A stretch of 42,677 bases of DNA from an uncultured Clostridia bacterium (lineage in GTDB: Bacteria; Bacillota; Clostridia; Christensenellales; Borkfalkiaceae). The first letter of the stretch is position 1, and each line of letters opens with the position of its first letter. A model generated the notes under the pieces. It was given only the letters and a program-made list of their open reading frames with translations. It had not been told where the DNA came from and did no database searches. This document shows, piece after piece, positions 19,295 to 42,229 of this stretch. Where the stretch lies: assembly GCA_947625865.1 (NCBI GenBank), contig CANQQD010000012.1, positions 1-42,677 on the forward strand. Direction: 5' to 3'. Position numbers and translations under genes: made by a program.

Positions 19295-19322
19295 ATTTTG
19301 ACCTCGTTCAAAAAGTAAATAT

Positions 19323-22208: not shown

Positions 22209-25200
22209 TTAAACGTTTGCAGCTGCCTCCGCAGGAGCCTTTGAGAACTCAAGCTTTGATATAGCAACATATTTATTGTCTTTGCCAGAAACAGTAACAT
22301 TAAATATAAGTTGATAATAACAATCAGTCCACTCCGAAACTGCATCGGGAGTTATTGTAATCTCTGTGTCTTTCTGGTACTCAATATTCTTTGTAGCAAT
22401 TGCAACTGCGCCGTCAGCCGTAGGGTCTGAGCTGTAAACCTTGAGGGTTACGCTGTTTATGGTAATGCTGCCGCTATCTGTAAGCTGAAGAGTTATCTTT
22501 GCTACGGTGCCGGTTATAGCCGTTTTACCGGTAAGTTTGCGGTCTACCGCTTCCGTCATGCTTTTGCCGCCGAAACGCCAAGGTTGTTGCTGAGAATTTC
22601 CTTCAACATTCCAGGTGACGCCGTTACATTTAACATCACAGTTATTGGCATAAACACTGTTTGTGCCTTTTTCTTGATCTCCGCTGTTCAATGAATAAAT
22701 CACGTTAGGGTCAGCGGCAGGGCGTTCAACTTTATCCCATTGGGTTGCTGTGGGATATACATTGGTACTCGATTTATCAACTTCCTTTGTGCCGTTATGA
22801 TCAATAAGATATCCCTTGATTATAAGCTGGTCGCCAACCAACAGAGGATTCTCCATGGGTTCGGGTTTTACAAGAACGTTCTCGTCCCAATTCAAATTAT
22901 AAACCAGCAAAGATTTATCTTTTGCAGTTTCTGCGGTATCGGCGATGTAAACGCTTGAAAGCCCGTATTTACCATTACTGGTTCCAAGTGCTCCTATATC
23001 AGTTACGTAACCTTTGATATAAAATTCTTTATCGGCTCCGCCGCTTTGATAGGTTTCACCACTTGACAAAATGTTAAGGATCTCGAATGCCTCGGCAACT
23101 GTAAGAGGATGTTCCGCGGTGCCATCGTTTGTAATCAAAGATCTGAGCGCAATTATTTTAATGGTTATATCTTTTGTTTCGACAGTTGCAGATCCCGAAG
23201 AAATTGTAACAGTAAGTTTAGCTTCTGCTTCCTCTGCGGGAGGAGCTGTAATAACCAACTTGCCATCGTTATCTATTGAAGCATAATCGGAAGTTTCCTT
23301 CATTGCCCAAGCAAGATTAACTTCATTGTTCGCTCCCTCGAACCACTTTGCGGGGAGAGTGTATGAGCCTGCTTCCGTATAGGACTTTTTGCTGAGGTCA
23401 ACAACGTCAACAGCTCCCATAATTTTCTCTTCGTCAGTCAAAGTACCGGCTTTGTTAGATTCAACAACGCAACCTGTATCAAATTCATATGTGCCGTTGT
23501 ATAATTTAAGCGTACCGGAAATAACTACTTCGTCGCCTGCGGCAATAGTTTTTATAATGCTATCACTACTATTATCTTTTGCACGGTAAGCCATTAACTT
23601 TTTATCGTTTACTTTAATTGTAAAAGTAATGTTATGATAGTTTGAAGCATAAGCCGTATCGATTCTTAAAACTTTACCTGTAAGTTTGTAGGAGCCTTTC
23701 AAAGAACCGTTTTCAGTTAAAGCAAATAACTTTGTAAGAATATCCTCAGTCGTATATTCATGCCCGCAAACACTGCACACGTTATTGACAATGGTGCAAT
23801 CTCCTGTAACGGTCGGTTCGGTGCAACCCTCGCCTGCACAGGTACCTGTGTGCTTCCAGGTTGTTGTATCCGTGGTATAACTGTAATCATGGGTGTGCGT
23901 ATCTTCACCGCCGCCGGGAGTCGTGCTGCCACCTTCTGCAAAAGTTACCGTGAAATTGAATACAAAGCCCCTCAGAGAAATAAAAATTTTAACAGTCTTG
24001 GAAGGAGCCGCCAAAACAAATTCAACGTCGCCGCCTGCGCCCGTTTCATTGTAAGGCAATGTTTTTGCTGTGGCGTCGTTTACAGAAATAGTGTTGCTAT
24101 TGTCAGGATACTGGCTTGATTTCTTAAACCAATCGTGGCAGTTAATTACTATTTTTGAAACATTTTCGCTAAACGTAAGAGTAAGCGTACCGTCATTACC
24201 CTCACCGCTTTTACCAAACTTTAATAAACCTGCAGTATTTTCATATGCGCCGCCTTGACCGTTACCGTTATATATATTTGTAGCCGAAACAGCAGTGAGC
24301 TTTGATGCACCAGCACTACAAGCACCTTTGATTGTATCCAAAGCGGTAGCTTCGGTTAAACCTGTGCCCTTTCCTGTTAAACCACTGAAGTCATACACCT
24401 CAGAGCCTGCAACAACTTCCGCCGCCTTTTTAATTGTAACGGTTACATCCTTTGTATCATTCTCAGTACCACACGTAGCCTTTACGGTAATGGTAATCGT
24501 TTTATCCGCGTCGGTGGGAAGCGAGGACACATGCAACTTGTTGTCAGAAACGGCATAAGTTGTGTCCGTAGTACTCCATTCAAATGTAACGTCTTTAACG
24601 GTAGATACGGGAAGTTCAACATCGTTGGCAGCAGTTACCGTCATTGTTGCATTAACTTTGGAAAGAGCTAACTCGATTTTTTGAGCGGGCGTTCTCTCTT
24701 CCTTTTCAAGATAATCGCAATAAATATCGCTATATGTATTATCAGATTTTTTGAAGCTTGCAAGTTCGGCATAAGGTGCACTGTCGTTTTTGCCTTGATA
24801 CCATTCAATATGACCGTGAAGCTTAATCTTTTTGCCGAGGGCGAGGTCGTCAAATGAAGTAAGATTTTCTTCGTCATATTCTATTCTGTATACGCAAAGC
24901 GAGTTGGTGTTGTTATATGTTTTATTTGCATCGTATTCATCTGCAATATAAACCCAGCCAACAGCAGTGGAACCAAATTGTGTGCCGTTACCACAATTAA
25001 CAATATAGCCTTCAACCCAAACTACGGTAGGAACTTCCTTACCTTTATCGGCATCACTATAATAATAGGTACCCGCAGTGCCCAAAGTGCTTGCAATTTC
25101 AATAACCTTGCTGGGCGAATAAGGATCGTCCAACGTGCCCGCTGCATCCTTGGGTTTGGCGGGAATGGTCTTGGTTACTTCCATCGACGCACTTGCGGAG

Positions 25201-25601
25201 TTGACCGTGACGGTTGCCTTGAGTTTATACGTGATGGGGTCATCACCCTTAACGATAGTTATGGTGGTCTGCTTGCTGGTTTCGTCCATCGTACCGATCT
25301 GGACATAATCGCTGATGTTGGTCACATCGGAAGAGGTTACCGTCCATACGATATCGTACATCGTGCCGTTAACCTTGGTCTGACCGAGAACCTTGTATGC
25401 GGAAGCGGTTTCGCCATCCTTAACAAGCGTCTTTAAGGAAGCGATCGCTGCGTCTGCAATCTCTTGATCGGTCTGTGTTCCACTGCCTTGTTGTCCGCCC
25501 TGTCCGGCGCCGCCGCCTTCACCGCCGCACGCGGCGAATCCGAAGCAAACGGCAAGCACCATTAAGATGGATAACAAACCAATTAGCCATTTTCTTTTCA
25601 T
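22209..25601 (-). CDS. Large surface lipoprotein with OB-fold-like and Ig-like repeats
   Basis: 1130 aa, probably membrane-anchored outside the cell. Lipobox FAAC (Cys25) and a Gly/Gln linker (26-42). Then alternating modules: degenerate bacterial Ig-like domains (about 45-150, 305-395, 770-850) and OB-fold-like modules starting GT(A/L)xxP(Y/L) with an ...V.GY(I/V)...VYIAD... core (about 155-300, 640-755, 860-975); a beta-rich DFSGLTGKGTGLTEA domain (about 396-555); a Cys/His-rich HTHDY...CSVCGHEY segment (about 565-625); and a C-terminal beta domain (about 985-1120). OB modules of this kind accompany secreted nucleases such as YhcR, so nucleic-acid binding is my inference. No catalytic motif is visible. 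AAAAGGAG precedes the ATG. Confidence 0.8.
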   Translation of the reverse strand: MKRKWLIGLLSILMVLAVCFGFAACGGEGGGAGQGGQQGSGTQTDQEIADAAIASLKTLVKDGETASAYKVLGQTKVNGTMYDIVWTVTSSDVTNISDYVQIGTMDETSKQTTITIVKGDDPITYKLKATVTVNSASASMEVTKTIPAKPKDAAGTLDDPYSPSKVIEIASTLGTAGTYYYSDADKGKEVPTVVWVEGYIVNCGNGTQFGSTAVGWVYIADEYDANKTYNNTNSLCVYRIEYDEENLTSFDDLALGKKIKLHGHIEWYQGKNDSAPYAELASFKKSDNTYSDIYCDYLEKEERTPAQKIELALSKVNATMTVTAANDVELPVSTVKDVTFEWSTTDTTYAVSDNKLHVSSLPTDADKTITITVKATCGTENDTKDVTVTIKKAAEVVAGSEVYDFSGLTGKGTGLTEATALDTIKGACSAGASKLTAVSATNIYNGNGQGGAYENTAGLLKFGKSGEGNDGTLTLTFSENVSKIVINCHDWFKKSSQYPDNSNTISVNDATAKTLPYNETGAGGDVEFVLAAPSKTVKIFISLRGFVFNFTVTFAEGGSTTPGGGEDTHTHDYSYTTDTTTWKHTGTCAGEGCTEPTVTGDCTIVNNVCSVCGHEYTTEDILTKLFALTENGSLKGSYKLTGKVLRIDTAYASNYHNITFTIKVNDKKLMAYRAKDNSSDSIIKTIAAGDEVVISGTLKLYNGTYEFDTGCVVESNKAGTLTDEEKIMGAVDVVDLSKKSYTEAGSYTLPAKWFEGANNEVNLAWAMKETSDYASIDNDGKLVITAPPAEEAEAKLTVTISSGSATVETKDITIKIIALRSLITNDGTAEHPLTVAEAFEILNILSSGETYQSGGADKEFYIKGYVTDIGALGTSNGKYGLSSVYIADTAETAKDKSLLVYNLNWDENVLVKPEPMENPLLVGDQLIIKGYLIDHNGTKEVDKSSTNVYPTATQWDKVERPAADPNVIYSLNSGDQEKGTNSVYANNCDVKCNGVTWNVEGNSQQQPWRFGGKSMTEAVDRKLTGKTAITGTVAKITLQLTDSGSITINSVTLKVYSSDPTADGAVAIATKNIEYQKDTEITITPDAVSEWTDCYYQLIFNVTVSGKDNKYVAISKLEFSKAPAEAAANV

Positions 25602-25656
25602 AACTTTCTCCTTTTAAAATATTTTTTATGTTTTTTACATAAAGCCGAATTTAATT

Positions 25657-25672
25657 GCCCGAACGTTCGGGC
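25657..25672 (-). other. Perfect 16-nt palindrome upstream of the large lipoprotein gene
   Basis: GCCCGAACGTTCGGGC in the 104-nt gap, followed on the minus strand by a second small hairpin (TTTATG/CATAAA). No T-run follows, so attenuation, RNA processing or a protein site are all possible. Confidence 0.5.
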
Positions 25673-25705
25673 GGGTTGGAATTGCCACACACATGGTGAG
25701 GTTTC

Positions 25706-27238
25706 TCAGTCAAGGATCTCAATGTAGTCAAGAAGGTGAACCTTGAGCTGGCATACGCCGTCGTATTGGTCGACAATACCTTTCGCATTGATGGTCTTAT
25801 ACAAGAACCGATCCTGCAAAACGAGCTCGCCATTCTCCTTTAAAACCGTTGTACGGACAACTGTTGTGACCGCATTGCCTTTGGAATCCGCCGCCACCTT
25901 GATCTTTTTGCCGTTTACGGTGACTTCAACACCGTTCTCGTCGAGCTGGTAGCATGTGAGAGAGATTGCGCCGGTATTTTCACCGCCGTTATTGGTGGTG
26001 TATGCCTCTTTGACGTAGAGGTTTTTCATGCTGATCGTCGTGTTCATTACGGCTTTGCCGTAATCAAGCGGGAACTTTTTGATATCGGGCGTTTCAACAC
26101 GGTTGCCGTCGGCGTCCTCGGTGATAACGGTTCTTTCGACGGTAGCCGTGATTTCCTTTGTCATGAAATCGACAACCTTTGTCTCGGCGAAAGCGGGAGA
26201 TTGATTTTTAATCTCGTTGCCGTCTTTATCCTTAATGACGTAGGTATTTTTAGGGTCGTCAGGATTGCGGGGGTCATAGCTGAGACCGCTGATCTGTGCG
26301 CCGAAAGTCCCGTCGTTGCCGGCGGTGCCGCAGAGGCTGACGCGGTTGCCGATCGTGAGGATCTTTCTTAAAAATGTGTCGAGGTTGTATCCGTAGTACA
26401 CAACAATGCCGAAATAGAGACCTGTTTCGGGGTCATACTCTTCAAGATAAATGTTGTTATCCATCTGAGTGGTGATAACGCCCTCGACGCGGACGACCTT
26501 TTGGGCATAATCGCCGATACAGCAACGGAGTTCCTTTAAAGAAATCTCGATAGGAGCGCCCTCATAAAAGTTAGGATCCTTTTCGTTTGAATAAACAATG
26601 AGCTTGTTTTCCTTTGCCTGCATGAGCGCGGGCAGAGCGTATTGTGTACCGTAGCGGTTGGTTTCGGTGTTCTGCGCGAAGCCATAGCCGTTTTGGAGAA
26701 GTTCAACGTTGAGGTTGCGATACTCGTCCCCCTCTTTCTTCTGATACCAAATCCAAAGGGTGTATCTCTCACCCGTGGAGTCTACATTCCAATTTGAATC
26801 GTCCGATTCAACTATTATGGAATGAACGTCGGTGAGCTTTTGGCGGGTGAAGTTGGAAGCGGTCTTGCCCCACTTCTCAACGTCGCCTGTCGATTCGGGC
26901 GTGTTGACGGCAAGATATCTCGCCTTGATATAGCCGTACGTCTTTGCAAAGGTGTCCTTGTTGGCGTTGTAATTGGTAAGTGTGGAATTTGTTACGGGAG
27001 TGAAGTGGGTCGTATCGCCGTCGATGAACTGGCGGACGGTAACTTCCTGCTTTACCGTTTCGCTGTTTAAATCGAGGTGAAGCTGGGAAACATAGTCAAC
27101 AAGGTTTGCCCCACCCTGCTCGCCGCCTTGCCCGGTGCCGCCGCCCTCGTTGGAGCCGCCGGCACACCCTGCCATAACGGGAATTACGAAGAGCGCAGCC
27201 AAAAGGAGTGAAACTAAAAATTTTACGTATTTTTTCAT
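25706..27238 (-). CDS. Surface lipoprotein nuclease, staphylococcal nuclease-like
   Basis: 510 aa from the ATG at 27238 (AGGGG 9 nt upstream). Lipobox MAGC (Cys25), Gly-rich linker to about 44, then an SNase domain (about 64-215): IDGDT (Asp75), ARYLAVNTPE (Arg107, Glu115) and GERYTLWIW (Arg158), equivalent to SNase Asp21, Arg35, Glu43 and Arg87; the Ca-ligand Asp40 is Asn, as in many relatives. LNVELLQNGYG is also typical. Residues about 235-330 form an OB-fold-like module (VVRVEGVITTQ...IYLEEYD); the last ~170 residues are unassigned. Expected to cut DNA or RNA at the cell surface. Directly follows the solute-binding protein gene. Confidence 0.88.
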   Translation of the reverse strand: MKKYVKFLVSLLLAALFVIPVMAGCAGGSNEGGGTGQGGEQGGANLVDYVSQLHLDLNSETVKQEVTVRQFIDGDTTHFTPVTNSTLTNYNANKDTFAKTYGYIKARYLAVNTPESTGDVEKWGKTASNFTRQKLTDVHSIIVESDDSNWNVDSTGERYTLWIWYQKKEGDEYRNLNVELLQNGYGFAQNTETNRYGTQYALPALMQAKENKLIVYSNEKDPNFYEGAPIEISLKELRCCIGDYAQKVVRVEGVITTQMDNNIYLEEYDPETGLYFGIVVYYGYNLDTFLRKILTIGNRVSLCGTAGNDGTFGAQISGLSYDPRNPDDPKNTYVIKDKDGNEIKNQSPAFAETKVVDFMTKEITATVERTVITEDADGNRVETPDIKKFPLDYGKAVMNTTISMKNLYVKEAYTTNNGGENTGAISLTCYQLDENGVEVTVNGKKIKVAADSKGNAVTTVVRTTVLKENGELVLQDRFLYKTINAKGIVDQYDGVCQLKVHLLDYIEILD

Positions 27239-27264
27239 AAAACCGAACCCCTGATTAGTGTTTG

Positions 27265-28794
27265 TCAGTTCTGCCTGCACTCTTCAAGCGTCTGTGCAAA
27301 GATCTTATCCAATTGATCGGGTGTGGAGAACACAGCCTGCAACAGCGTACCTACGTTTGAACGCGCTTCGGCGGAGCCAACGAATGCGGGAGATGTAAAG
27401 TACGCGTTCTCTTGTTCCATGCAGACCTTTGCGGAAAGCGCCGTGATGTTGCCGGGCTGTTCTGCTTCTTCATAATTCTTCGCAAAGATCGGATCCTCTA
27501 ACATCGTTTGGAGGTTGAGAACGGGAACGTAACCGGAAGTTCTGGAAAAGTCTGCCTGGAAACCGACATTCGTGATAAGATATTTGACGAAAAGCCAGCT
27601 TGCAAGGACTTCCTGAGGGTTACTATCTTTGAAGATACAAACGGAAGGTCCCTGCGAGATAACCTTGGGTTTATAGTTGGCATCGTAATCGGCTTCCGCT
27701 GAATCCTCGGGTTTGTAGTGTTTCAACTGGGGAATAGGCGCGATACCGACGGTAAACTCATACTCACCCTGAACCTGATCTGATTGCTGATAGGAAGCGC
27801 CCGCAGTGGATCCAATGCACATATAGGATGTCTGAGCAGTGAAACGGTCGGATGTGTAGGTGTTATTGTTGAGCATCTGCGTCGTAACGTAACCACTTTT
27901 ATACCACTGAGCAAATCGAGCTACGAAACCGCGGTTGGTTTCGTTATCGAATATGTAGTGGTCGCCCGTCGCCGAAGTATAGCCGGATCCATACTGTTCA
28001 CACATGGTGATAAACCAGTTTGCCTCGGAGTCATAGCCGAGCGGAATGCAGTCCGGATCGAGATCTGTTTTGATCTTGCGGCAGACTTCTTCCATCTCGT
28101 CCCATGTTTCGGGAACCTCAAGCCCCTTGGTCTCGAAGAAAGTCTTATTGTAGAAGAGCACTTCGGTAGACTTAGAGAAAGGCATGGTGTACATTTTGCC
28201 ATCGGCAAATTCTCTGCCCTCATTATAGTAACCGGGGATAAACTTGTCGACCTGCTCCTGCGTAAGCCCAAGCTTTTCGGTCGACCCGTCTTGACGAGTT
28301 ACTGTCATATCGGCATACTCGCCGCCGGGAAGGAAGTCGTCAAGCGTGAGCACCGCACCCGAAGTATTGTACCCGGCAACGTGGTCGGAATAGCAATAGG
28401 CTACGTTGGGCTGCGTGTCCGCAATGATCTGGTTGGAGATCATACTGTAGAGTTCGTCGTATTTGCTTGAATCTCTGACGGCGTCCACATTGTCGACGGT
28501 AATGTTGGGGTAGATTGCTTGAAATTGATCCACATACTTTCTGAGGACTCCCCTCAAATTCTGCCCCATGGTGTGGGAGAAACTGATGGTGACGGGTTTT
28601 GACGTATCAAAACCGCCCTCGGGCATCACAAATTCTGACGCACCCGAATTGCCGCCGCCCTGAAGTCCGCCGAGACCGCCGCTTCCGCCGTTACCACCGC
28701 CGCCGTTGCCACCATTGTTGCACGCGGTCAAGGACAATGCCATTGTGCAGGCAAGGACGCCCGCCATAATTAGTGTGCCGATTTTTTTCTTCAT
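27265..28794 (-). CDS. ABC transporter extracellular solute-binding lipoprotein (CUT1-like)
   Basis: 509 aa. Lipobox LTAC (Cys25), long Gly/Asn linker (26-50), then a family-1 solute-binding fold (VTISFSHTMGQNLRGVLRKYVDQFQAIYPNI), with MPFSKSTEVLFYNKTFF and GLEVPETWDEMEEVCRKI typical of sugar binders, and a SYMCIGSTAGASY hinge. Such proteins usually bind oligosaccharides or polyols; its genomic setting suggests the ligand could be a DNA breakdown product. AAGGAG before the ATG. Downstream of its two permease genes. Confidence 0.9.
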   Translation of the reverse strand: MKKKIGTLIMAGVLACTMALSLTACNNGGNGGGGNGGSGGLGGLQGGGNSGASEFVMPEGGFDTSKPVTISFSHTMGQNLRGVLRKYVDQFQAIYPNITVDNVDAVRDSSKYDELYSMISNQIIADTQPNVAYCYSDHVAGYNTSGAVLTLDDFLPGGEYADMTVTRQDGSTEKLGLTQEQVDKFIPGYYNEGREFADGKMYTMPFSKSTEVLFYNKTFFETKGLEVPETWDEMEEVCRKIKTDLDPDCIPLGYDSEANWFITMCEQYGSGYTSATGDHYIFDNETNRGFVARFAQWYKSGYVTTQMLNNNTYTSDRFTAQTSYMCIGSTAGASYQQSDQVQGEYEFTVGIAPIPQLKHYKPEDSAEADYDANYKPKVISQGPSVCIFKDSNPQEVLASWLFVKYLITNVGFQADFSRTSGYVPVLNLQTMLEDPIFAKNYEEAEQPGNITALSAKVCMEQENAYFTSPAFVGSAEARSNVGTLLQAVFSTPDQLDKIFAQTLEECRQN

Positions 28795-28823
28795 GTTTGA
28801 CTCCTTCTATTTGATTTTTTTGA

Positions 28824-29885
28824 TTAACCTTTGATACCGCTTCTCGATACTCCGCGCATTATGTACTTGCGGAAGAATATGAACAGAATGAGAAGCGGGA
28901 TAGTCACGATAACGACTGCAGCCATCTGTGCGGGCATGTTGGTCTTCTGCAAGATTTCGTCGAAGAATGCTTCGCCGCGAAGACCGACCGTGATGAGCCT
29001 GTGTGCTACGTCGTTTGCGACGAGCTTGGGCCACATGTAGGCGTTCCACGCGCCCATCATCTTAAGAAGCGTGATGGAAATGAGCGTGGGCGCGGAAAGC
29101 GGGATCATCACTTTCCACAGATATTTAAGATCGCTTGTCCCATCTACCTTGGCGGCAAGATACAACTCGTTGGGAATCTGCATAAAGTTCTGCCGCAAGA
29201 GATAGATATAGAACACGCTGACAAGAGACGTAATGATTAAGACTGTGTATGTGTTCAGAAGGTTCCAATTGGCGACCGTAACATAGTTCGTGACAGTGAA
29301 CAACTCGCCGGGAATCATCATCGTTGCAAGTAACAGTGCAAACACGATGTTCTTACCCTTGAAATTGAGCCTTGCAAAGGCATATGCCGAGAGAATTGTA
29401 ATGATAAGAGAAAGTATCGTGGAGACGACTCCGACGATGACAGTGTTGAGGAACAGCCTGCCGAGGTTGAGCCCTACGCTCTGGAATAGCTCTCTTCCAA
29501 AATCCGCGCTCGTAAGTCCACATTCGGAACAGACGGTGGGCGCGATTGGATTGTAGAAAATATGCCCACAGTTATTGCATGTAAATGATCTGAACGCATA
29601 GGAATAGTTCGACCACTGAAATTCATTGGGCCAGAATGTGGGAACAGTAGCCTCATACTCTTTCACTGTCTTTAATGACGAGATAAGCATCCAATAGAAA
29701 GGAAAGAGCACAATGACCGCCATAATGGTGAGGAAAGCGTAGAGCGCGATCTGCACAAGAATCTTCCATATCTTCTGTTTCTTGGAGATATTTTGAATCT
29801 TACTCCCTCCGCCCTGAGTTTTGGGAGAACTTACTGCGTCGGCTTCAACAGCAACAAATTCTGATTGATTCAATTCTTCCGCCAT
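28824..29885 (-). CDS. ABC transporter permease, MalG-like, with zinc-ribbon-like insertion
   Basis: 353 aa, six predicted transmembrane helices after a 35-residue charged N terminus; EAA loop ELYLAAKVDGTSDLKYLWKVMIPL at about 235-258 contacts the ATPase. Between helix 1 (about 43-68) and helix 2 (about 143-165), in the loop normally outside the cell, lies CNNC (103-106) and CSEC (119-122), spaced CX2C-X12-CX2C, a zinc-ribbon arrangement not usual in MalG-type permeases. The preceding ...EFQWSNYSYAF is standard for the family. Partner of the adjacent MalF-like permease. Confidence 0.92.
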   Translation of the reverse strand: MAEELNQSEFVAVEADAVSSPKTQGGGSKIQNISKKQKIWKILVQIALYAFLTIMAVIVLFPFYWMLISSLKTVKEYEATVPTFWPNEFQWSNYSYAFRSFTCNNCGHIFYNPIAPTVCSECGLTSADFGRELFQSVGLNLGRLFLNTVIVGVVSTILSLIITILSAYAFARLNFKGKNIVFALLLATMMIPGELFTVTNYVTVANWNLLNTYTVLIITSLVSVFYIYLLRQNFMQIPNELYLAAKVDGTSDLKYLWKVMIPLSAPTLISITLLKMMGAWNAYMWPKLVANDVAHRLITVGLRGEAFFDEILQKTNMPAQMAAVVIVTIPLLILFIFFRKYIMRGVSRSGIKG

Positions 29886-29897
29886 AGTTTCCCTCCA

Positions 29898-32740: not shown

Positions 32741-32787
32741 ATTTGGTCCTTTTCTGTCGTATTTTATATACAATATTACTATTGATA

Positions 32788-33722: not shown

Positions 33723-33779
33723 CCTTTTAAATGAAAATTATTTAAGAAAAGTATAATATTTTTTCCGCGGCTTCGGCGG

Positions 33780-34409: not shown

Positions 34410-34431
34410 TCCAGTCTACCGAAAAACAAGC

Positions 34432-35595
34432 TCACCTGTTTAAAAATTCCCCCGCGCTATCTATAGCCGCCTTATTTGCCGACTCCGCGTCGCCGTTCAG
34501 GGAAGCCACATATTTATTATAATTATCGATTGCCTCGTTCAGCGTCGCAACATCCCCCGAAGCCGACTCCTTTTCGGATTCCGTAAGGGCAAGAAGGGCG
34601 TTGGCGGCTTTTTTCAGCGAAGCAAGCCTTAAAGCGAGCGACCCCTCGGTCACAATACCCTCTACCGCGGCATGAAAATCATCTAAATGCTTGTTGCTCT
34701 GGCTGCCGCCCCCCAAAGGCTCGTCGCCCCAAATAGCTTCGGCATATTCGGGATGGTCGACAAACGGGTTGCGGTTGCCCTGTATTTCTTGGGCGGCTTC
34801 GTTCCTTGCAAGTTCCAAACCGTCAACAGGGTCTGAATTATGCCATTCAAGCAAAATTTGTATTGCGGCATTTTCGCTTGTTGCCGCTATAATTTTTGTA
34901 AAATTCAAGGTTCCAAAAAAGTTGGGGCTACCATTTCCGTTGGTAGTTCCATAGATATTTTCGAATGTATTATAATGTGTGTAAACATACATAATAATTC
35001 TAGCCACATCGCCTTTCACAGTGTCAATCGGCTCAAATACCGTACCTTTTTCATATCCGCCGAGTGCGACCTTAACCCCGCTCTTATTTACATACCAAAT
35101 CTCTGTACCGCCAATCACATTACCGTACCTATCATTATCGCGATCAGTGTTAAGCCGACTCTCTGTCGGTCTGATATGCAACAAATCGCTACCACAACCG
35201 CTATTGGCTTTATTCCAAAGATTATTTGAAAGGCTTTTGCACCAAACATGTTCACGATTCCATGTGCCAGGCGCAGCAAACTCCCATGTTGCCGACAATT
35301 CTGCCTGCGCATAAAATTCCATAAGTTGACCGTTAGGACCTGGGTCGGTCCTCTTTACATATTCGGGATTTTTACAGTCGTCATATGAAGTATAATATGT
35401 ATGCGTGGTCGTTATCAGGTCGTGCACCTGACCCAAAAGCTCATTGCCGCCCGTTGAGGTTATGGTTGCATAATAGCTACCCGCTTCTGCTATAGCTGCC
35501 GTTGCGGGTGAAAAGCTGCTCGCCGCAATCACGCCAAACGCCAAAACGACCGCGCCGCAAACAGAGACAATCTTTTTTATGGCTTTCGGCATCAT
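34432..35595 (-). CDS. Secreted endonuclease I family nuclease
   Basis: About 388 aa with a Sec signal peptide (cleavage likely near TAAIA, residue 35). Catalytic core at about 108-160: TWNREHVW (His116, metal/catalytic), SDLLHIRPTESRLN (His140, Asn149) and DNDRYG, the endonuclease I (EndA/Bsn/YhcR-associated) signature. C-terminal ~120 residues form a helical extension (about 290-388) of unknown role. The ATG at 35595 overlaps the tdk stop (ATGA); GGAGG lies 4 nt before it and 7 nt before the next in-frame ATG (35592), which may be the true start. Would cut extracellular DNA or RNA non-specifically. Confidence 0.9.
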   Translation of the reverse strand: MMPKAIKKIVSVCGAVVLAFGVIAASSFSPATAAIAEAGSYYATITSTGGNELLGQVHDLITTTHTYYTSYDDCKNPEYVKRTDPGPNGQLMEFYAQAELSATWEFAAPGTWNREHVWCKSLSNNLWNKANSGCGSDLLHIRPTESRLNTDRDNDRYGNVIGGTEIWYVNKSGVKVALGGYEKGTVFEPIDTVKGDVARIIMYVYTHYNTFENIYGTTNGNGSPNFFGTLNFTKIIAATSENAAIQILLEWHNSDPVDGLELARNEAAQEIQGNRNPFVDHPEYAEAIWGDEPLGGGSQSNKHLDDFHAAVEGIVTEGSLALRLASLKKAANALLALTESEKESASGDVATLNEAIDNYNKYVASLNGDAESANKAAIDSAGEFLNR

Positions 35596-36179
35596 TGCAC
35601 CTCCTGCTGTTCTTTGATTTTTTTGAGCCAGCATTTCCTGCACATGGCGACATATCTGTTATTGCCGCCTATACAGATCTGCGAGCCCTCGGTAACTATT
35701 TTCCCGTTGTCGTCGAGGCGCGCATTGACCGTGGCTTTTGCCCCGCAGGTGCAAATCGACTTTATTTCGCTTATGGATTCGGCAATTTCAAAGAGCCTTT
35801 TGCTGCCGGGGAACAAATGCGTGGTAAAATCGGTGGCAAGCCCGAAGCACAACACGGGGATATTCCGTTCGATTACGATATCCGAAAGGCTGTCGACCTG
35901 TTCGGGCGTGAGGAACTGACATTCATCCACAATTATTACGTTGCAGTCCGAGTAGTTTTCGAGGTATAGCTTATATAGGTCATCGTTTTCACCCACAGCT
36001 ATAGCTTCCTTTTGCAAGCCTATACGCGACTTGATAATATCGTGACCGTCGCGCGTATCTATAGCGGGCTTTAAAAGAAGCACCTTCATATTGCGTTCTT
36101 CGTAATTGAATTTTGTTATGAGCGCCTGCGCTGTTTTGGAGCACCCCATCGCGCCGAACTTAAAATATAATTTTGCCAT
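35592..36179 (-). CDS. tdk: Thymidine kinase (type II, zinc-binding)
   Basis: Phosphorylates deoxythymidine to dTMP. P-loop GAMGCSKT (8-15; the SKT form occurs in some Firmicutes), DECQFL (about 86-91, Walker B), and the C-terminal zinc site CTCGAKAT ... CRKCW. 195 aa, normal. 13 nt after the pdp stop. Allows thymidine from degraded DNA to be reused rather than broken down. Confidence 0.95.
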   Translation of the reverse strand: MAKLYFKFGAMGCSKTAQALITKFNYEERNMKVLLLKPAIDTRDGHDIIKSRIGLQKEAIAVGENDDLYKLYLENYSDCNVIIVDECQFLTPEQVDSLSDIVIERNIPVLCFGLATDFTTHLFPGSKRLFEIAESISEIKSICTCGAKATVNARLDDNGKIVTEGSQICIGGNNRYVAMCRKCWLKKIKEQQEVQ

Positions 36180-36192
36180 TTTCCTTCTGTGA

Positions 36193-37494
36193 TTATTTTA
36201 TTATGTCGTAAATGAGCGGTTCTTTTTCGGGTGCGGCGTCGGAAATTTCCGTTGCGGAAAGCAGTCTTTCTTCTGCGGCTTCAAACGACGATTGGCTATT
36301 GGAATAGAGAACCGCTATATCCTCGCCCTCATGCACGTAATCGCCCGTTTTTTTCTTTAAAACGATCCCCGCGCTGTAATCTATGGCGTCTTCAACCTTA
36401 TTTCGTCCCGCGCCGAGCGCAAGACTTGCAAGCCCGTAGGCTTCGGCGTCCGCTCGGCGGATATAACCGCTCACCCTGCTCTTAAAGGCATGCGAATATT
36501 TAGCCTTGGCAAAACCTTCGGTGTGCTCTATAAGCTTCGGGTCGCCGCCCTGCGCCTTGACTGTTTCTATCAATTTATTGAGCGCGCTGCCGTCCACGAT
36601 CGCTTTACGGGCAAGTGCTTCGCACTCATCGGGCGTGCCCTTCCCTGCAAGCGACAGCATGTGCGCCGCAAGAGTGATGCACACGCCCGTCAGATCGTCG
36701 GGTCCTTTGCCGCGCAGAGTCTCCACCGCCTCTATGACCTCGAGGGAATTACCTATGGCGTAACCCAACGGACGGTCCATATTGGTAATGAGCGCGACCA
36801 TCTTCTTGCCCGCGTTCTTGCCGATGTCGACCATTATGCGGGCAAGTTCCCTGCTCTCGTCAACGGTTTTCATAAAGGAACCGCTGCCCGTCTTTACGTC
36901 TAAAACAATGCAGTCGTCGTCCGCGGCGAGCTTTTTGCCCATAATGCTTGCGGCGATCAAAGGCATGCTATCCACGGTTGCCGTGACGTCGCGCAAAGCA
37001 TAGAGTTTTTTATCTGCGGGGGCAAATTGTTTTGATTGCCCCACAATGGCTAGCCCTATTCTATTGACCTGCTCAATAAATTCCGCGTCGGAAAGGGTTG
37101 TGCGGAACCCGTCTATTGCTTCGAGTTTGTCGACCGTTCCGCCCGTATGTCCGAGACCCCTGCCGCTCATTTTGGCAACCTTAATGCCGTACGAAGCGAC
37201 GATCGGCGCAACTACCAAGCTGGTTTTGTCGCCAACGCCGCCGGTGGAATGTTTGTCCACGCGGATACCGTGAACTGCAGAAAAATCAACCTTTTCGCCC
37301 GAATCGCGCACGGCAAAGGTCAAATCGCATGTTTCGCGGTCTGTCATGCCGCGGAAATAGATTGCCATGCACAGAGCCGAGATCTGATAGTCCGGAATAC
37401 TGCCGTCGGTAACGCCGCCTATAAAATAATTTATTTCCGCGGTGGTAAGTTCGCCGCCGTCACGCTTCTTTTTTATGATGTCATACATTCTCAT
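36193..37494 (-). CDS. pdp: Pyrimidine-nucleoside/thymidine phosphorylase
   Basis: Splits thymidine, deoxyuridine or uridine with phosphate into base and (deoxy)ribose-1-phosphate. KHSTGGVGDKTSLVVAP (about 81-97) is the phosphate-binding signature; SGRGLGHTGGTVDKLE follows; GSGSFMKT and ALITNMDRPLG are also conserved; C-terminal PYNP domain (about 345-433). 433 aa, normal. Cannot be firmly divided between deoA and pdp. The start may be the ATG at 37494 or at 37488. Confidence 0.96.
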   Translation of the reverse strand: MRMYDIIKKKRDGGELTTAEINYFIGGVTDGSIPDYQISALCMAIYFRGMTDRETCDLTFAVRDSGEKVDFSAVHGIRVDKHSTGGVGDKTSLVVAPIVASYGIKVAKMSGRGLGHTGGTVDKLEAIDGFRTTLSDAEFIEQVNRIGLAIVGQSKQFAPADKKLYALRDVTATVDSMPLIAASIMGKKLAADDDCIVLDVKTGSGSFMKTVDESRELARIMVDIGKNAGKKMVALITNMDRPLGYAIGNSLEVIEAVETLRGKGPDDLTGVCITLAAHMLSLAGKGTPDECEALARKAIVDGSALNKLIETVKAQGGDPKLIEHTEGFAKAKYSHAFKSRVSGYIRRADAEAYGLASLALGAGRNKVEDAIDYSAGIVLKKKTGDYVHEGEDIAVLYSNSQSSFEAAEERLLSATEISDAAPEKEPLIYDIIK

Positions 37495-37500
37495 AGTCTA

Positions 37501-39249
37501 TTAAGCCCAGCCTCCGCCTTTTATAAAGTCGGCAAGCAAATCGCGGGCATAGACCCCGCTGTCATACCGCTCAACGACGGTGATATTGTTCCACTTGTAA
37601 AATGCAGTGTACGTATCCACAATGATGTAGTAGGTCTCGTTATTTCTGATACTCGATTGCTCGATCCCCGAAACGTATGTGTAGCCGACCTTGCTATTGA
37701 AGAATTGGCTGATAAGTTTTGCCCCGCTGATTTTACCAAGCACGATCTCGTTGTCAAACGGAAGCACCGAATACAGGTCAGCATAAGTCACGTTGCCGGA
37801 ATAAATATTATAGGGGTTGCGGGCATTCAGATATCCGCCGCCGAGGACGATATTGTATTTCTTTCCCCAGACCTCCAGGCCTTTTTGATAGTACAATTCG
37901 GCGACTTTGCTTACTATCGCCTCCGAATTTTTGGTCGATCTGTTGTAGCCGATAACGTCGTACGGGTTATTGTCGGGGAAGTATTTATCAAACAGCTCGT
38001 CAACAATAGGGTCGTCCCCTATACTGTCCTTTGCGTACGTACCGCTTGCGATAAGCTGCGGCTCAACCGAATATTCCTTTGTTATGATGTTAAACGATAC
38101 GTTTGCACGGCTTATATATCTGTTTTCACTGCTTGCCTGCATGTGGTAAACGCCGTATTCGTCTTTTAAAATATATCGCCGGTGGGTGTGCGCCTCAAAC
38201 ACAAGGTCGACATAACCGTCCGACAATTCGGTATCATAGTAGGCCATATCGCTGTTCTTTACGGAATTGACGCCCGACGAGGAAAAATCCTCGCCGCCGT
38301 CGTGAATGGAATAGACGATAAAATCGCAGTTATCTTCGTTTCTCAATCTATCCGCTTCGTTCTTCACAAGCGCAGTAAGCGCGTCGTCCGTTGCAAAAGA
38401 AAGCCCGTCGCTGAACTCGCCGGAGATAGAACTCAGGCAATCGCCGATAGCGCCGATTATGCCGATTTTTACGCCTCCCTTTTCCACAATCGTGGACGAC
38501 TTGCAATAGTCTACGGCTTTCCCTTGATATGTGACGTTGATTGCAAGAAAGGGAAATTCCGCAAGTTTGCTGTTGGGGGTAAGTATGTCGGATCCCCAAT
38601 CAAATTCATGGTTGCCGAGCGTCATGGACGCAAAACCAACGTCATTCATCCACTCGGTCATAAGTTGCCCCTTGTTTGACGAGGACTCCACGGTGCCCTG
38701 CCACATGTCGCCCGACGACAGGAGTATTTCCTCCCGCTCCGTATCGGCATATAAATCTTTCAGGTATGTGGTAAACTCGTCCAACCCCGACTGTGTAGAG
38801 GTATCCATAAATTTCCCGTGAAGGTCGTTTACCGCATAAAAAGACAGCTCTGAAACAACGCTTTCGCCGCCGTAATCGCAAATTCCGTCCGAATTGAGAT
38901 CCGTATGGGTATGATTGGGATCAACATCATGCTTTACGTATGTTTGCGTCGCCGAAAAATCGCTGTCGAGATAATCGGCGTTGCCGCTTAAGGCCTTAAC
39001 TTTTATGGTCTGTCCCTCACTCAGCGTAACAAAACAATCTAAGGTGGGAATTTCTTCGCCGTCGTCAATAACATAGACATAGTACAGTACGCCGTCGATT
39101 TCATTCCATACGGCTGTACCGTCCTGCCCAACTATCACTTCAGGGGTGGCAAGTTTGGGGGGAGTAGTTTTAATGCAACCTGCAAAAAACACGCATGCGA
39201 ACAGGGCGGCGCATAAAAGATATGCAATTTTACTCAAATTTTTTTTCAT
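37501..39249 (-). CDS. Surface lipoprotein 5'-nucleotidase (UshA/CD73-like)
   Basis: Dephosphorylates nucleotides outside the cell so that nucleosides can be taken up. 582 aa: lipobox FAGC (Cys25); a small beta domain (about 33-105); a Ca-binding-like DLNSDGICDYGG loop (117-128); metallophosphatase domain from about 135 with NDLHG (141-145), GDMWQG (180-185), GNHEFDWG (212-219) and AHTHRR; C-terminal 5'-nucleotidase domain (about 385-575) with GGGYLNARNPY and DLYSVLPFDN. All five metallophosphatase blocks are present. Sits between cdd and pdp. Confidence 0.93.
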   Translation of the reverse strand: MKKNLSKIAYLLCAALFACVFFAGCIKTTPPKLATPEVIVGQDGTAVWNEIDGVLYYVYVIDDGEEIPTLDCFVTLSEGQTIKVKALSGNADYLDSDFSATQTYVKHDVDPNHTHTDLNSDGICDYGGESVVSELSFYAVNDLHGKFMDTSTQSGLDEFTTYLKDLYADTEREEILLSSGDMWQGTVESSSNKGQLMTEWMNDVGFASMTLGNHEFDWGSDILTPNSKLAEFPFLAINVTYQGKAVDYCKSSTIVEKGGVKIGIIGAIGDCLSSISGEFSDGLSFATDDALTALVKNEADRLRNEDNCDFIVYSIHDGGEDFSSSGVNSVKNSDMAYYDTELSDGYVDLVFEAHTHRRYILKDEYGVYHMQASSENRYISRANVSFNIITKEYSVEPQLIASGTYAKDSIGDDPIVDELFDKYFPDNNPYDVIGYNRSTKNSEAIVSKVAELYYQKGLEVWGKKYNIVLGGGYLNARNPYNIYSGNVTYADLYSVLPFDNEIVLGKISGAKLISQFFNSKVGYTYVSGIEQSSIRNNETYYIIVDTYTAFYKWNNITVVERYDSGVYARDLLADFIKGGGWA

Positions 39250-39263
39250 AATGCCTACAAATA

Positions 39264-39668
39264 TTATAGATTTTCAGAAGTAAACGTAAGCGGTAACAGC
39301 ATGTCCAAAGTGTAAACTTCAAATTTGTTGATATTGCCGAGAATTATCTTAAAATCTTTGGGGCAGAACTCTGCCATTACCTGCCGGCAAACCCCGCAAG
39401 GCGGGCATGTTTCCAATGGCTCGCCCTCTTTGCCTCCCACTATCGCAAGAGCCTCAAAGTCGCTTTCGCCCTCGCTTACGGCTTTAAAGATTGCCGTCCG
39501 CTCCGCGCATACGGTTGCAGAATACGCGGCGTTTTCTATATTGCAGCCCGTATAGATCTTGCCGCTTCTTGTCAAAAGCGCCGCACCCACGCGGAAATGC
39601 GAGTATGGCGAATATGATTTTTCGCGCGCCGCCTGGGCTTGCCTCACCAAAAAGCCGAAATCGGTCAT
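39264..39668 (-). CDS. cdd: Cytidine deaminase
   Basis: Deaminates cytidine and deoxycytidine to uridine/deoxyuridine. SPYSHFRVGAALL, GCNIENAAYSATVCAERTAI (zinc Cys plus Glu) and CPPCGVCRQVMAEF are diagnostic. 134 aa tetrameric type. ATG overlaps the deoB stop (ATGA). Confidence 0.97.
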   Translation of the reverse strand: MTDFGFLVRQAQAAREKSYSPYSHFRVGAALLTRSGKIYTGCNIENAAYSATVCAERTAIFKAVSEGESDFEALAIVGGKEGEPLETCPPCGVCRQVMAEFCPKDFKIILGNINKFEVYTLDMLLPLTFTSENL

Positions 39669-40828
39669 TTTATGACCTCCTTCAAAAAGCTTTCGCCCGA
39701 TGTATTTTTCTTATCGACGCCGAAGTAATCGAGTACGGTTGCGCTTATATCCGAAAAGCTCGGGCGCGTGCCCAAATTCACGCCGCTTTTGATTTTGGGA
39801 CCGTAAATGAGCATGGGCGTATATTCGCGGGAGTGGTCTGTCGAAGGCGTCGAAGGATCGCAGCCGTGATCCGCGGTTATCAACAGAACGTCGTCCTCCC
39901 GCATGTCCTTTATAAATCCCGTCAGAAAATTATCGAATTCGGTAGCCGCCGCGGCATATCCCGCAACGTCGTTTCTGTGGCCGTATTTCATGTCGAAATC
40001 GACCAGATTTACAAAGCAAAGCCCCGAAAAGTCTCTTTTTTGTATCTCCTTAGTTACCTGCATACCGTGCGTGTTTGAAACCGTGCGGTTGCTTTCGGAA
40101 ATTCCGCTGCCGGCAAAAATATCGTAAATTTTACCTACGGATATAGTATCGTACCCCGCCTCTTTCAAAAGATTTATCATTGTATCCGACGGCGGTTCAA
40201 GCGAAAAATCGTGTCTGTTCGATGTGCGGGTATAGGGATATTCGCCTGTAAACGGGCGGGCGATCACCCTGCCTACGCCGTGGGGCGGCACAAGCATTTT
40301 ACGGGCTGTTTCGCAGTACTCATACAGCTTTTCAACCGGCACCACGTCCTCATGCGCCGCGATCTGGAAAACGCTGTCCGCCGAGGTGTAGACTATCAAA
40401 TCGCCCGTTTCCACATGCTCGCGCCCGTAATCTTTAATGACCTCAGTCCCGGAATAAGGTTTATTGCATATTACCTTTCTGCCTGTTTCCCGCTCAAACT
40501 CCTCTATTATTTCCGCAGGAAATCCGTTTGGATATGTAGGTAACGGGTCGGGAGAAATAATTCCGGCTATTTCCCAGTGACCGATCGTAGTATCCTTGCC
40601 CATGGACTTCTCGCACATTCTTGCATAGCTTGCTTTGGGTGCGCGCACCCCGCCGCCCACGCCGTCTATATTGAACAGCCCCATCGATTTGAGCCCGGGA
40701 CAGTTGAAAAGCGGGTGGTTGCGTATTGCACCCAATGTGTTGCTGCCCTCGTCGTGCCACAAATATGCGTCGGGAAGTTCACCTACGCCGAAGCTGTCAA
40801 GTACAATCAAAAAAAATCTTTTTGCCAT
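39665..40828 (-). CDS. deoB: Phosphopentomutase
   Basis: Converts (deoxy)ribose-1-phosphate to the 5-phosphate. Alkaline-phosphatase fold with DSFGVGELPDA (11-21), DTTIGHWE (about 79-86, phosphorylated Thr), TSADSVFQIAAHEDVV and ADHGCDPSTPSTDHSRE (metal ligands). 387 aa, normal. Confidence 0.97.
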   Translation of the reverse strand: MAKRFFLIVLDSFGVGELPDAYLWHDEGSNTLGAIRNHPLFNCPGLKSMGLFNIDGVGGGVRAPKASYARMCEKSMGKDTTIGHWEIAGIISPDPLPTYPNGFPAEIIEEFERETGRKVICNKPYSGTEVIKDYGREHVETGDLIVYTSADSVFQIAAHEDVVPVEKLYEYCETARKMLVPPHGVGRVIARPFTGEYPYTRTSNRHDFSLEPPSDTMINLLKEAGYDTISVGKIYDIFAGSGISESNRTVSNTHGMQVTKEIQKRDFSGLCFVNLVDFDMKYGHRNDVAGYAAAATEFDNFLTGFIKDMREDDVLLITADHGCDPSTPSTDHSREYTPMLIYGPKIKSGVNLGTRPSFSDISATVLDYFGVDKKNTSGESFLKEVIK

Positions 40829-40853
40829 TTAAATCACCGTAAAAATATTAAAA

Positions 40854-41573
40854 TCACGCTAACTCGAGCGCGATTTTCATCATTGCCGTGAAGGAAGTTT
40901 CCCTCTCCTCGGCCGTAGTATTCTCTTCAGGATAAATAAAGCTGTCGCTTACGGTGCAGATGCACAGAGCCTTTTTGCCGGCGCGCGCCGCATTGCAATA
41001 GAGCGCGGCGCTCTCCATCTCCACACCGAGAACGCCCATTTTTGCCCACTGCATGCCGCTGCTGCTGTCGTCATAGAACATGTCGGAGGAAAAAATATTT
41101 CCCACCTTGTACTTTACGCCCGCCTTTTCGCACAAATCGGCGGCGCGGCGGAGAAGCCCGAAATCGGCTATGGGACAATATGTGCCCGGAAGGTTATACT
41201 GCTTGGCATAATTGCCGTTCGTACAGGCTCCCTGCGCAATTATAAGATCGCGGACATGAAGTTCCTTGTCAAAAGACCCGCATGAACCGACGCGGATAAT
41301 ATTTTCAACGCCATAAAAATTGAACAGCTCATAGGAATAAATACCTATGGAGGGTTGCCCCATTCCGGAAGCCATAACGGAAACGCGCTTCCCTTTATAA
41401 TAGCCCGTATATCCGTTCACTCCTCGTACATTATTCACGAGCGCCGCATCGTCGAGAAAGCGTTCGGCAATGAATTTTGCACGCAAAGGATCGCCCGGCA
41501 TAAGCACGGTCTGAGCAAAATCGCCGTATTTTGCAGATATGTGCGGAGTGGGGATATTGGCGTGTTCGCTCAT
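40854..41573 (-). CDS. deoD: Purine-nucleoside phosphorylase, DeoD-type
   Basis: Phosphorolysis of purine (deoxy)nucleosides. MPGDPLRAKFIAE (about 25-37), SGMGQPSIGIYSYEL, RVGSCGSF, and GVEMESAALY (about 178-187) with the later SDSF are the hexameric DeoD motifs. 239 aa, normal. ATG overlaps the deoC stop. Confidence 0.97.
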   Translation of the reverse strand: MSEHANIPTPHISAKYGDFAQTVLMPGDPLRAKFIAERFLDDAALVNNVRGVNGYTGYYKGKRVSVMASGMGQPSIGIYSYELFNFYGVENIIRVGSCGSFDKELHVRDLIIAQGACTNGNYAKQYNLPGTYCPIADFGLLRRAADLCEKAGVKYKVGNIFSSDMFYDDSSSGMQWAKMGVLGVEMESAALYCNAARAGKKALCICTVSDSFIYPEENTTAEERETSFTAMMKIALELA

Positions 41574-42229
41574 ACTAAATGCTCCTCTTTGACTATTTTT
41601 ACAATGCGGGAAGTGCCCAATCTGTCTGCCCCGAGAGCAACGAAATCCTCGGCGTCTTTTATCGAAGCTATTCCGCCCGCAGCCTTGATTTTTACGTTTT
41701 TACCCACATGCTTTTTAAACAAGGCAACATCCTCGCGCGTTGCGCCGCCCTTGGAGAAACCGGTCGAGGTTTTGATAAAATCGGCTTTTGCGGCGGTGAC
41801 TATTTCGCACATTTTGATTTTTTCTTCTTCGTTGAGCAGACAGGTCTCTATGATAACCTTTAAGATCTTGCCGCCGCACGCAGCTTTAACAGCCTCAATC
41901 TCCGCCCGGATCTTATCGTAATTCTTAGCTTTCAAGTCGCCGATATTTATGACCATGTCTATCTCGTCGGCGCCGTTTGCAACAGCTTCCTGCGTTTCAA
42001 ATACCTTGACAGCGCTTGTGTTATAGCCGTTGGGAAAGCCGATAACCGTACAGATGGCAATTCTGCCTTCCGCGTATTTTTTTGCCTCGCGCACATAGCA
42101 GGGCGGAATACATACGGACGCCGTCGAATATCTGATACCGTCGTCGATAAGCGCACGGATATCCTCCCAGGTTGACGTCACAGACAGTTGGGTATGATCG
42201 CATTTTCCCAATAGCTCGCGAATTTCCAT
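41570..42229 (-). CDS. deoC: Deoxyribose-phosphate aldolase
   Basis: Cleaves deoxyribose-5-phosphate to acetaldehyde and glyceraldehyde-3-phosphate, feeding glycolysis. CDHTQL start, TVIGFPNGYN, VIIETCLL (about 125-132), DFIKTSTGFSKGGAT (about 149-163; Schiff-base Lys152) and KAAGGI. 219 aa, normal. First gene of the array, with GAGAGGA before the ATG and a promoter about 95 nt upstream. Confidence 0.97.
   Translation of the reverse strand: MEIRELLGKCDHTQLSVTSTWEDIRALIDDGIRYSTASVCIPPCYVREAKKYAEGRIAICTVIGFPNGYNTSAVKVFETQEAVANGADEIDMVINIGDLKAKNYDKIRAEIEAVKAACGGKILKVIIETCLLNEEEKIKMCEIVTAAKADFIKTSTGFSKGGATREDVALFKKHVGKNVKIKAAGGIASIKDAEDFVALGADRLGTSRIVKIVKEEHLV

Follow-up and report, generated by a model that had tools for sequence, protein, structure and literature searches.

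A candidate nucleic-acid foraging locus of gut Clostridia that joins a surface nuclease to a CUT1-type ABC importer

A 42,677-base contig (CANQQD010000012.1, analyzed in its entirety and called the window below) from the 1.76-Mb, 71-contig draft genome of an uncultured Clostridia bacterium carries what is probably a nucleic-acid foraging system, in which a surface nuclease of the SNase family, an ATP-binding cassette (ABC) importer of the CUT1 type, cytosolic nucleotide-processing enzymes, and deoxyribose catabolism would act in succession. We put the probability of this whole scheme of digestion, import, cytosolic processing, and catabolism at roughly 0.6. A role in nucleic-acid foraging in the general sense is very likely; that oligonucleotides are the main cargo of the importer is a more tentative proposal, which we hold at a little under even odds. 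The first-pass annotation, made from the sequence alone, had described a dedicated scavenging array with a logic like that of polysaccharide utilization loci. The gene identities, conservation, co-occurrence, and residue conservation reported below support that description.

The array consists of 16 genes, all on the minus strand, from position 22209 to 42229. An open reading frame check returned the coordinates that the first-pass annotation had used, and its picture of sixteen same-strand genes with few gaps and of their identities is borne out by these coordinates and by matches to Pfam and NCBIfam models. The inventory was right for the genes that it listed, but it overlooked a pair of NrnA-type genes, surE, and a fusion of NT5C and guanylate kinase domains next door. 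The nuclease and importer genes are an SNase-domain putative surface lipoprotein (25706 to 27280; Pfam SNase, 28.5 bits, cut-off 21), a CUT1-type solute-binding lipoprotein (SBP; 27265 to 28794; Pfam SBP_bac_8), permease B of the UgpE/MalG type (28824 to 29885; BPD_transp_1), permease A of the UgpA/MalF type (29898 to 31391; BPD_transp_1), an ATPase of the UgpC/MalK type (31388 to 32773; ABC_tran; 38% identity to Escherichia coli UgpC), and an RDD-family membrane protein (32788 to 33642; Pfam RDD). Neighboring genes of the array are spaced by −52 to +29 bp with two exceptions, 104 bp between the genes for a 1,130-amino-acid (aa) lipoprotein and SNase and 137 bp between those for RDD and a 209-aa lipoprotein; with these two gaps of more than 100 bp, the array may be transcribed as two or three units.

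The nuclease and the importer are inherited together. Eight window proteins were searched against 101 genomes, 61 of the same genus (G000 to G060) and 40 of the same order. SNase was matched in 11 genomes (E ≤ 1e-3; 8 of the genus, and a weak, partial match in G064), the SBP in 12 (1e-20; 8 of the genus, and a weaker sister type in G070 and G076), the endonuclease I family nuclease EndoI in 10 (1e-8; 8 of the genus), pyrimidine-nucleoside phosphorylase (PyNP) in 29 (1e-40; 8 of the genus), and deoxyribose-phosphate aldolase (DeoC) in 54 (1e-15), where within the genus 8 copies are at least 68% identical to the window protein and the rest are paralogs at 23 to 29%. The same 8 of the 61 same-genus genomes carry SNase, SBP, EndoI, PyNP, and true DeoC, and none of the five was found in the other 53 at the thresholds used. 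The array from SNase to DeoC is on a single contig in G013, G016, G048, and G052 and is split over several contigs in G008, G038, and G051. Diverged second copies of both SBP and SNase were seen in G051 (C33, C15) and of SBP in G038 (C12, C13). Outside the genus, G072 and G078 each have SNase, SBP, and EndoI together with the NrnA pair.

The carriers are scattered over a tree of rpoB proteins that covers four outgroups and all genomes of the genus except G012, G039, G050, G057, and G059, in which rpoB was partial or split (56/61), with 5 changes, at least 4 of them on supported branches. A single clade of the 8 carriers plus G034, which has part of the set, was rejected (approximately unbiased [AU] test on a quick rpoB tree, p = 1.7e-53). 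The pattern fits repeated loss or transfer of the genes as a block.

Co-occurrence extends to the order. Among 297 genomes of at least 85% completeness, the SNase profile (1e-15) gave 40 matches, 38 of which were counted as family members after the weak ones in G064 and G105 were dropped, and the SBP profile (1e-40) gave 60, of which 38 were counted as the strong type, including the partial or split matches in G126 and G155 (254 to 275 bits). Family SNase and strong SBP occur together in 37/297 genomes (Fisher p = 6.6e-45, a value that ignores shared ancestry); with G126 and G155 counted as weak, the strong SBPs become 36, the shared genomes 35, and the Fisher value 7e-41. In 35 of the 38 genomes the SNase gene is on the same strand as the SBP gene and no more than 1 kb from it; in G296 and G339 the two genes are on different contigs, and in G198 no SBP was found. 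A chance neighborhood or an artifact of one genome, which the first-pass annotation had named as grounds for refutation, is rejected by this co-occurrence in the genus (8/61) and in the order (37/297).

To define the locus more widely, genome contigs were scanned with an alignment of the SBP, which yielded at least 590 stretches, at least 577 of them confirmed (tblastn, E ≤ 1e-3) and possibly including the sister type that lacks SNase. The best 80 of the 577 were examined as loci, so that the proportions given here lean toward close relatives. Their database labels, which are unreliable for metagenome-assembled genomes, comprise 75 Clostridia, 2 unclassed Bacillota, 2 Spirochaetales, and 1 Mollicutes, and many mention the gut of sheep, goat, cattle, or deer, or else “Lapin,” which we read as rabbit. 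Hidden Markov models (HMMs) built from the carriers found SNase in 77 of the 80 loci, the ATPase in 73, each permease in 72, the large lipoprotein in 67, RDD in 64, NrnA2 in 33, NrnA1 and SurE in 29 each, EndoI and PyNP in 12 each, thymidine kinase in 11, the 5′-nucleotidase in 9, and DeoC in 7, in counts that include contigs ending early; the SNase model had no match in L133, L148, and L163. Where enough sequence was available, RDD proved a regular partner of the importer (47/47 loci with at least 6 kb 5′ of the ATPase), and NrnA or SurE was present in 32/47 loci whose sequence extends 8 kb or more past SNase, on the opposite strand in 32/32. EndoI (9/47) and the 5′-nucleotidase (8/47) were rarer in the loci that extend 6 kb or more on the ATPase side. 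The core is thus RDD-ATPase-permease A-permease B-SBP-SNase; most loci also have the large lipoprotein, and many have NrnA-NrnA-SurE. EndoI, the 5′-nucleotidase, and the deo genes are additions to this core. Other genes seen near the core among these 80 loci, from one identified representative of each cluster, encode an HD-domain phosphohydrolase (14 loci; for example, L210, 16805 to 18046), which we take to be dGTPase-like, a PHP-domain protein (6 loci), and a stand-alone 5′-3′ exonuclease (9 loci).

Family matches and neighbors bear on what the importer carries. By sequence, the SBP is of the CUT1 type. Among members of its own family, weak matches were to the UgpB model (8/8) and to carbohydrate SBP models (7/8), and the sister SBPs of L070 and L071 accompany importers that adjoin a HAD hydrolase and a metallophosphoesterase, respectively, with no SNase. 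These matches would suit an importer for an unrelated phospho-compound (glycerol-phosphate, a glycerophosphodiester, or a sugar phosphate) or for a sugar, next to which the nuclease would be one neighbor in a general decay-feeding island. We regard this as quite improbable, because SNase lies 0 to 58 bp from the SBP in the 77 SNase-bearing loci of the best 80 of 577 and the Trp clamp that holds glycerol-phosphate in UgpB is missing. The first-pass annotation had itself raised the prospect that in relatives the importer would cluster with sugar operons; it was SNase that adjoined it, in those 77 loci, and the sugar operon was rejected. The L070/L071 type is perhaps a second importer family for a phosphorylated compound.

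Genes for probably cytosolic processing enzymes accompany the nuclease-importer pair. Beyond a terminator-like hairpin of 16 pairs (22104 to 22139, a consensus match only), which separates surE from the gene for the 1,130-aa lipoprotein, three plus-strand genes converge on the array from 19380 to 22074, each overlapping the next by 4 bp. NrnA1 (19380 to 20378), of the DHH/DHHA1 oligonucleotide phosphodiesterase or 3′-phosphoadenosine 5′-phosphate (PAP) phosphatase type, scores 239.8 bits against NCBIfam NF053633 (cut-off 350), and its best Protein Data Bank (PDB) match, 5j21 (182.9 bits), is named “Bifunctional oligoribonuclease and PAP phosphatase NrnA.” NrnA2 (20375 to 21355; Pfam DHH and DHHA1), the second dedicated protein of this type, scores 249.3 bits, also below the NF053633 cut-off, and the SurE 5′/3′-nucleotidase (21352 to 22074) scores 160.7 bits against TIGR00087 (cut-off 135.1). 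SurE family enzymes use both 5′- and 3′-nucleotides (PMC8475336). Adjoining this set on the minus strand (18185 to 19351) is the fusion of NT5C, the 5′(3′)-deoxyribonucleotidase family (63.1 bits), with guanylate kinase (59.7 bits), both Pfam matches above cut-off; a guanylate-kinase P-loop pattern had no match in the window protein, in which GPSGSSKT is nonetheless visible. Relatives of the fusion align from about residue 19, so that its true start is likely Met20. With relative-supported starts, no signal peptide was seen by eye in NrnA1, NrnA2, SurE, or the fusion, which is probably cytosolic.

An NrnA1-like protein is common (83/101 genomes at 1e-20), but the dedicated tandem pair (at least 172 bits, all other NrnA matches reaching 123 bits at most) occurs in 11/101, namely exactly the 10 genomes with SNase and SBP plus G034, and is tandem in all 11. 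SurE (1e-20) is found in 39/101 genomes, including 9 of the 61 of the genus (the 8 carriers and G034), and the NT5C-kinase fusion (1e-20) in 11/101, namely the same 9 plus G072 and G075, with none in the other 90. In G072 and G078 the NrnA-SurE set and SNase are on different contigs, so the co-occurrence does not depend on adjacency alone.

The binding site of the SBP leads in the same direction. In the PDB, the SBP profile matches the 7c0x/7c0f series best (E = 2.5e-24) and UgpB 4aq4 less closely (1e-19); the database names the former only “sugar-binding protein,” and we take them to be the Thermus dinucleotide-binding protein. In UgpB, phosphate is bound by two Tyr and two Ser, and two Trp clamp the glycerol (PMC12718374); that source also refers to an SBP of the CUT1 family from Thermus thermophilus, whose ligand, the dinucleotide U3G, is bound through the same phosphate residues. 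Mapped through E. coli UgpB, with the E. coli places obtained by offset from Phaeobacter numbering, the phosphate residues align to Y112, S209, S329, and Y422 of the window SBP, which are kept in 82, 82, 82, and 81 of 82 family SBPs, respectively. At the aligned places of the Trp clamp, the family has mostly Ala, Ser, or Gly and Phe. The conserved phosphate residues argue against an SBP that binds only oligosaccharides and, together with an NrnA pair that tracks SNase and SBP, they suggest a cargo of nucleotides or short oligonucleotides and speak less for sugars or nucleosides.

SNase cleavage leaves 3′-phosphorylated mono- and dinucleotides, whose 3′-phosphates 5′-nucleotidases do not act on, so the 5′-nucleotidase lipoprotein of the array would be unable to complete dephosphorylation outside the cell. 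This tells against a scheme in which scavenging takes place and nucleosides or nucleobases are what the importer brings in, with the 5′-nucleotidase finishing digestion outside and NrnA and SurE devoted to internal turnover. That scheme draws on the presence of the 5′-nucleotidase within the array, on the nucleoside or nucleobase transport that Wasmund et al. inferred for Izemoplasma loci (PMC8289736), and on a Mycoplasma bovis mutant in a UgpE-type permease that was impaired in nucleoside uptake (PMC12838404). Set against it are the phosphate-type pocket, the NrnA pair that accompanies the importer, the PnrA-like nature of the described nucleoside SBP, mycoplasma P48 (PMC12892991), and the rarity of the 5′-nucleotidase, whose HMM matched in only 8/47 5′ and 1/47 3′ neighborhoods, a search that other secreted nucleotidases could escape. 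We consider nucleoside import unlikely. The first-pass annotation had nucleotides dephosphorylated outside and then imported; the 5′-nucleotidase is indeed there, but cytosolic NrnA or SurE recurs with the core more often (32/47 versus 8/47 loci), which makes nucleotides or short oligonucleotides the likelier cargo.

Import of nucleotides or oligonucleotides, and the foraging scheme around it, has a number of observations against it. The sister SBPs of L070 and L071 both keep all four phosphate residues and neither is beside SNase, so the pocket favors a phosphorylated ligand and not nucleotides specifically; the control proteins MalE (0/4) and YcjN (1/4) align poorly with the family, which makes that control soft; and the column aligned with UgpB Glu88 has mostly Pro instead, with an invariant Asp adjacent. 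For the window SBP the carbohydrate model TIGR03850 (51 bits) outscores UgpB (32.6 bits), but neither comes close to its cut-off, so the cargo is not decided by family names. Within the genus, the 5′-nucleotidase and nucleoside catabolism would be compatible with nucleoside import as well. As for co-occurrence, the genus offers only 4 independent contrasts on supported branches, a number that does not suffice for a sign test, the Fisher values take no account of shared ancestry, 22/297 genomes have only the weaker SBP type and no family SNase, and NrnA or SurE was not found within reach in 15/47 loci. G034 has NrnA, SurE, and the fusion, and SNase, SBP, and EndoI were not found anywhere in its draft; its contig stops inside a large open reading frame directly past surE, so the locus may be cut by the assembly. 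In the nuclease, finally, the place of the metal ligand D40 is Asn in 67/77 sequences and Asp in 10/77, which leaves SNase activity less than certain, and the OB-fold matches of the 1,130-aa lipoprotein are below cut-off.

On the side of activity, the SNase family profile matches staphylococcal nuclease structures (E from 3.3e-15), and the places of R35, E43, R87, and D21 are invariant in 77/77 sequences; these residues and D40 are numbered, and their roles assigned, as in staphylococcal nuclease. Active-site patterns are present in SNase, the 5′-nucleotidase, EndoI, both NrnA proteins, SurE, and the cytidine deaminase Cdd; one DeoC pattern had no match in the window DeoC. Lipobox-like N termini are visible by eye in the 1,130-aa protein, SNase, the SBP, the 209-aa protein, and the 5′-nucleotidase. 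The NCBIfam matches of SNase, the SBP, the importer, EndoI, and the 5′-nucleotidase all fall below the model cut-offs. The 1,130-aa lipoprotein (22209 to 25601), with weak Ig-like (aBig_2, E = 1.6e-4) and OB-fold-like (tRNA_anti-codon, E = 0.0045) segments, both below cut-off, is a possible surface nucleic-acid binder, which we offer as a guess. The 209-aa lipoprotein (33780 to 34409) has no Pfam match and is present in 5/7 other same-genus carriers.

The remaining genes of the array add a second secreted nuclease and a catabolic branch. They encode EndoI (34432 to 35643; Pfam Endonuclease_1, 123.3 bits; NREH motif), thymidine kinase Tdk (35592 to 36179; NF003300, 237.6 bits, cut-off 195), PyNP (36193 to 37494; TIGR02644, 576.3 bits, cut-off 409), the 5′-nucleotidase-type lipoprotein (37501 to 39249; Metallophos and 5_nucleotid_C above cut-off), Cdd (39264 to 39668; TIGR01354), phosphopentomutase DeoB (39665 to 40828; TIGR01696), purine-nucleoside phosphorylase DeoD (40854 to 41573; TIGR00107), and DeoC (41570 to 42229; TIGR00126, 241.8 bits, cut-off 117.3); Tdk, PyNP, Cdd, DeoB, DeoD, and DeoC all exceed curated NCBIfam cut-offs. 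In other families, PyNP and DeoC often occur where SNase is missing, and in G072 PyNP was not found at the threshold used, which marks the catabolic part as a module joined to the core in this genus. A second aldolase of the DeoC superfamily, 23 to 29% identical, is present in G000 and many same-genus genomes with or without the locus. The co-inheritance of the nucleases with deoxyribose catabolism and the importer in the genus points to nutrition, and we therefore think it very improbable that their purpose is escape from extracellular traps, biofilm dispersal, or defense against incoming DNA, with salvage secondary, despite the help that mycoplasma nucleases give in breaking neutrophil traps (PMC9740415).

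Enzyme activities, localization, cargo, flux, and nutritional role are inferred in the scheme that we propose. The surface SNase lipoprotein and secreted EndoI would cut extracellular DNA, and SNase probably RNA too, into short oligonucleotides and nucleotides, which the CUT1 importer, through an SBP with UgpB-type phosphate residues, would take up. In the cytoplasm the NrnA pair would cut the oligonucleotides, and SurE and the NT5C domain would remove 3′- or 5′-phosphates. The 5′-nucleotidase lipoprotein may handle part of the load outside and, with EndoI, form a second, external route in this genus. PyNP, DeoD, and Cdd would then yield bases and (deoxy)ribose-1-phosphate, DeoB and DeoC would convert deoxyribose-1-phosphate to acetaldehyde and glyceraldehyde-3-phosphate, both central metabolites, and Tdk would return thymidine to DNA synthesis. 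A phosphate-seeking importer served by cytosolic NrnA, SurE, and NT5C appears to be the economical reading. The first-pass annotation had DNA as the sole target; the deo branch does point to DNA in this genus, but this is too narrow for the core, as mycoplasma SNases cut both DNA and RNA (PMC3585158 and PMC9740415).

Systems of the same kind are already known, although the first-pass annotation knew of no described Firmicutes locus with this set of genes. In PMC3585158 and PMC9740415, uptake of nucleic-acid precursors is proposed for the mycoplasma SNase-ABC operons (MAG_5030-5070 of Mycoplasma agalactiae, mhp379, and MHO_0730), which likewise place an SNase lipoprotein beside an SBP lipoprotein, an ATPase, and two permeases. 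Their order is SBP-SNase-ATPase-permease-permease (PMC3585158), whereas that of the window is ATPase-permease A-permease B-SBP-SNase, and RDD, deo, and NrnA/SurE genes, all in the window, go unmentioned in the accessible descriptions. Homology of the SBP to its mycoplasma counterparts appears weak by the NCBIfam lipo_P68 model, which matches 7/8 members (best 1e-13) and gives the window SBP 24 bits against a cut-off of 200. The DNA-degradation loci of “Candidatus Izemoplasmatales,” with extracellular nucleases, 3′-5′ nucleases, phosphohydrolases, and an ABC transporter, are likened by their authors to polysaccharide loci (PMC8289736), and DNA promotes growth of X. coldseepsis (PMC8397711). The window similarly combines several extracellular nucleases (SNase and EndoI), a 5′-nucleotidase, and an importer. 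The Izemoplasmatales loci, from a class other than that of the window host, differ in having phosphate transporters and a large lamin-tail protein, for which the 16 genes gave no Pfam match (nor did a lax scan find a lamin-tail domain in the 1,130-aa protein), and the available text mentions no deoxyribose catabolism within them.

The importer resembles UgpBAEC and the U3G-binding SBP of T. thermophilus in belonging to the CUT1 family and in keeping the phosphate-binding Tyr and Ser (PMC12718374), and it departs from UgpBAEC in the absence of the Trp clamp and in having nucleases, not UgpQ, as neighbors. A long N terminus of permease A was rejected as a family signature, as was a four-cysteine rubredoxin-like (zinc-ribbon-like) insert after the first membrane helix of permease B, which has a weak Pfam match below cut-off and occurs in only 3/10 aligned sequences (G000, G013, and G016). 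Against a phage collection the SBP matched 8 records, all at less than 60% identity, 3 of them at 29 to 32% among the matches listed. The deo operon is made up of deoC, deoA/pdp, deoB, deoD, and cdd; the window encodes the same enzymes alongside secreted nucleases and an importer in a single array. None of the papers listed in the literature searched, whose coverage mostly excluded subscription papers, appears to describe a Clostridia version. As far as those listings show, what appears to be new is the presence of such a locus in Clostridia and how widely it occurs there, the inheritance of the NrnA pair and SurE along with it, RDD as a partner, and the joining to deoxyribose catabolism in one array. 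Elsewhere in the window, 9735 to 10306 on the minus strand holds a full-length OLE RNA (RF01071; 415 bits, gathering score 50) in what is a small-genome gut Clostridium.

Shed host cells, phages, food, and dying microbes supply the gut with DNA and RNA, in our view a food source that has had little attention, and an SNase gene adjoining this SBP gene is a marker for species that may feed on it. It is conceivable, though we would not give it quite an even chance, that gut Clostridia harbor a widespread clade of CUT1 importers dedicated to the short oligonucleotides (dinucleotides and 3′-nucleotides) that a partner SNase releases, and that these importers have a cytosolic processing set of their own, made up of two NrnA-type phosphodiesterases, SurE, and the NT5C-kinase. 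If so, this would be a nucleic-acid counterpart of polysaccharide utilization in which digestion is completed inside the cell and the released nucleosides are not shared with competitors. The locus offers a way to test for ABC import of short oligonucleotides in bacteria and to learn which SBP serves it, and the SNase-linked importer of mycoplasmas, for which the available literature inferred the cargo (PMC3585158, PMC9740415), would gain a free-living reference.

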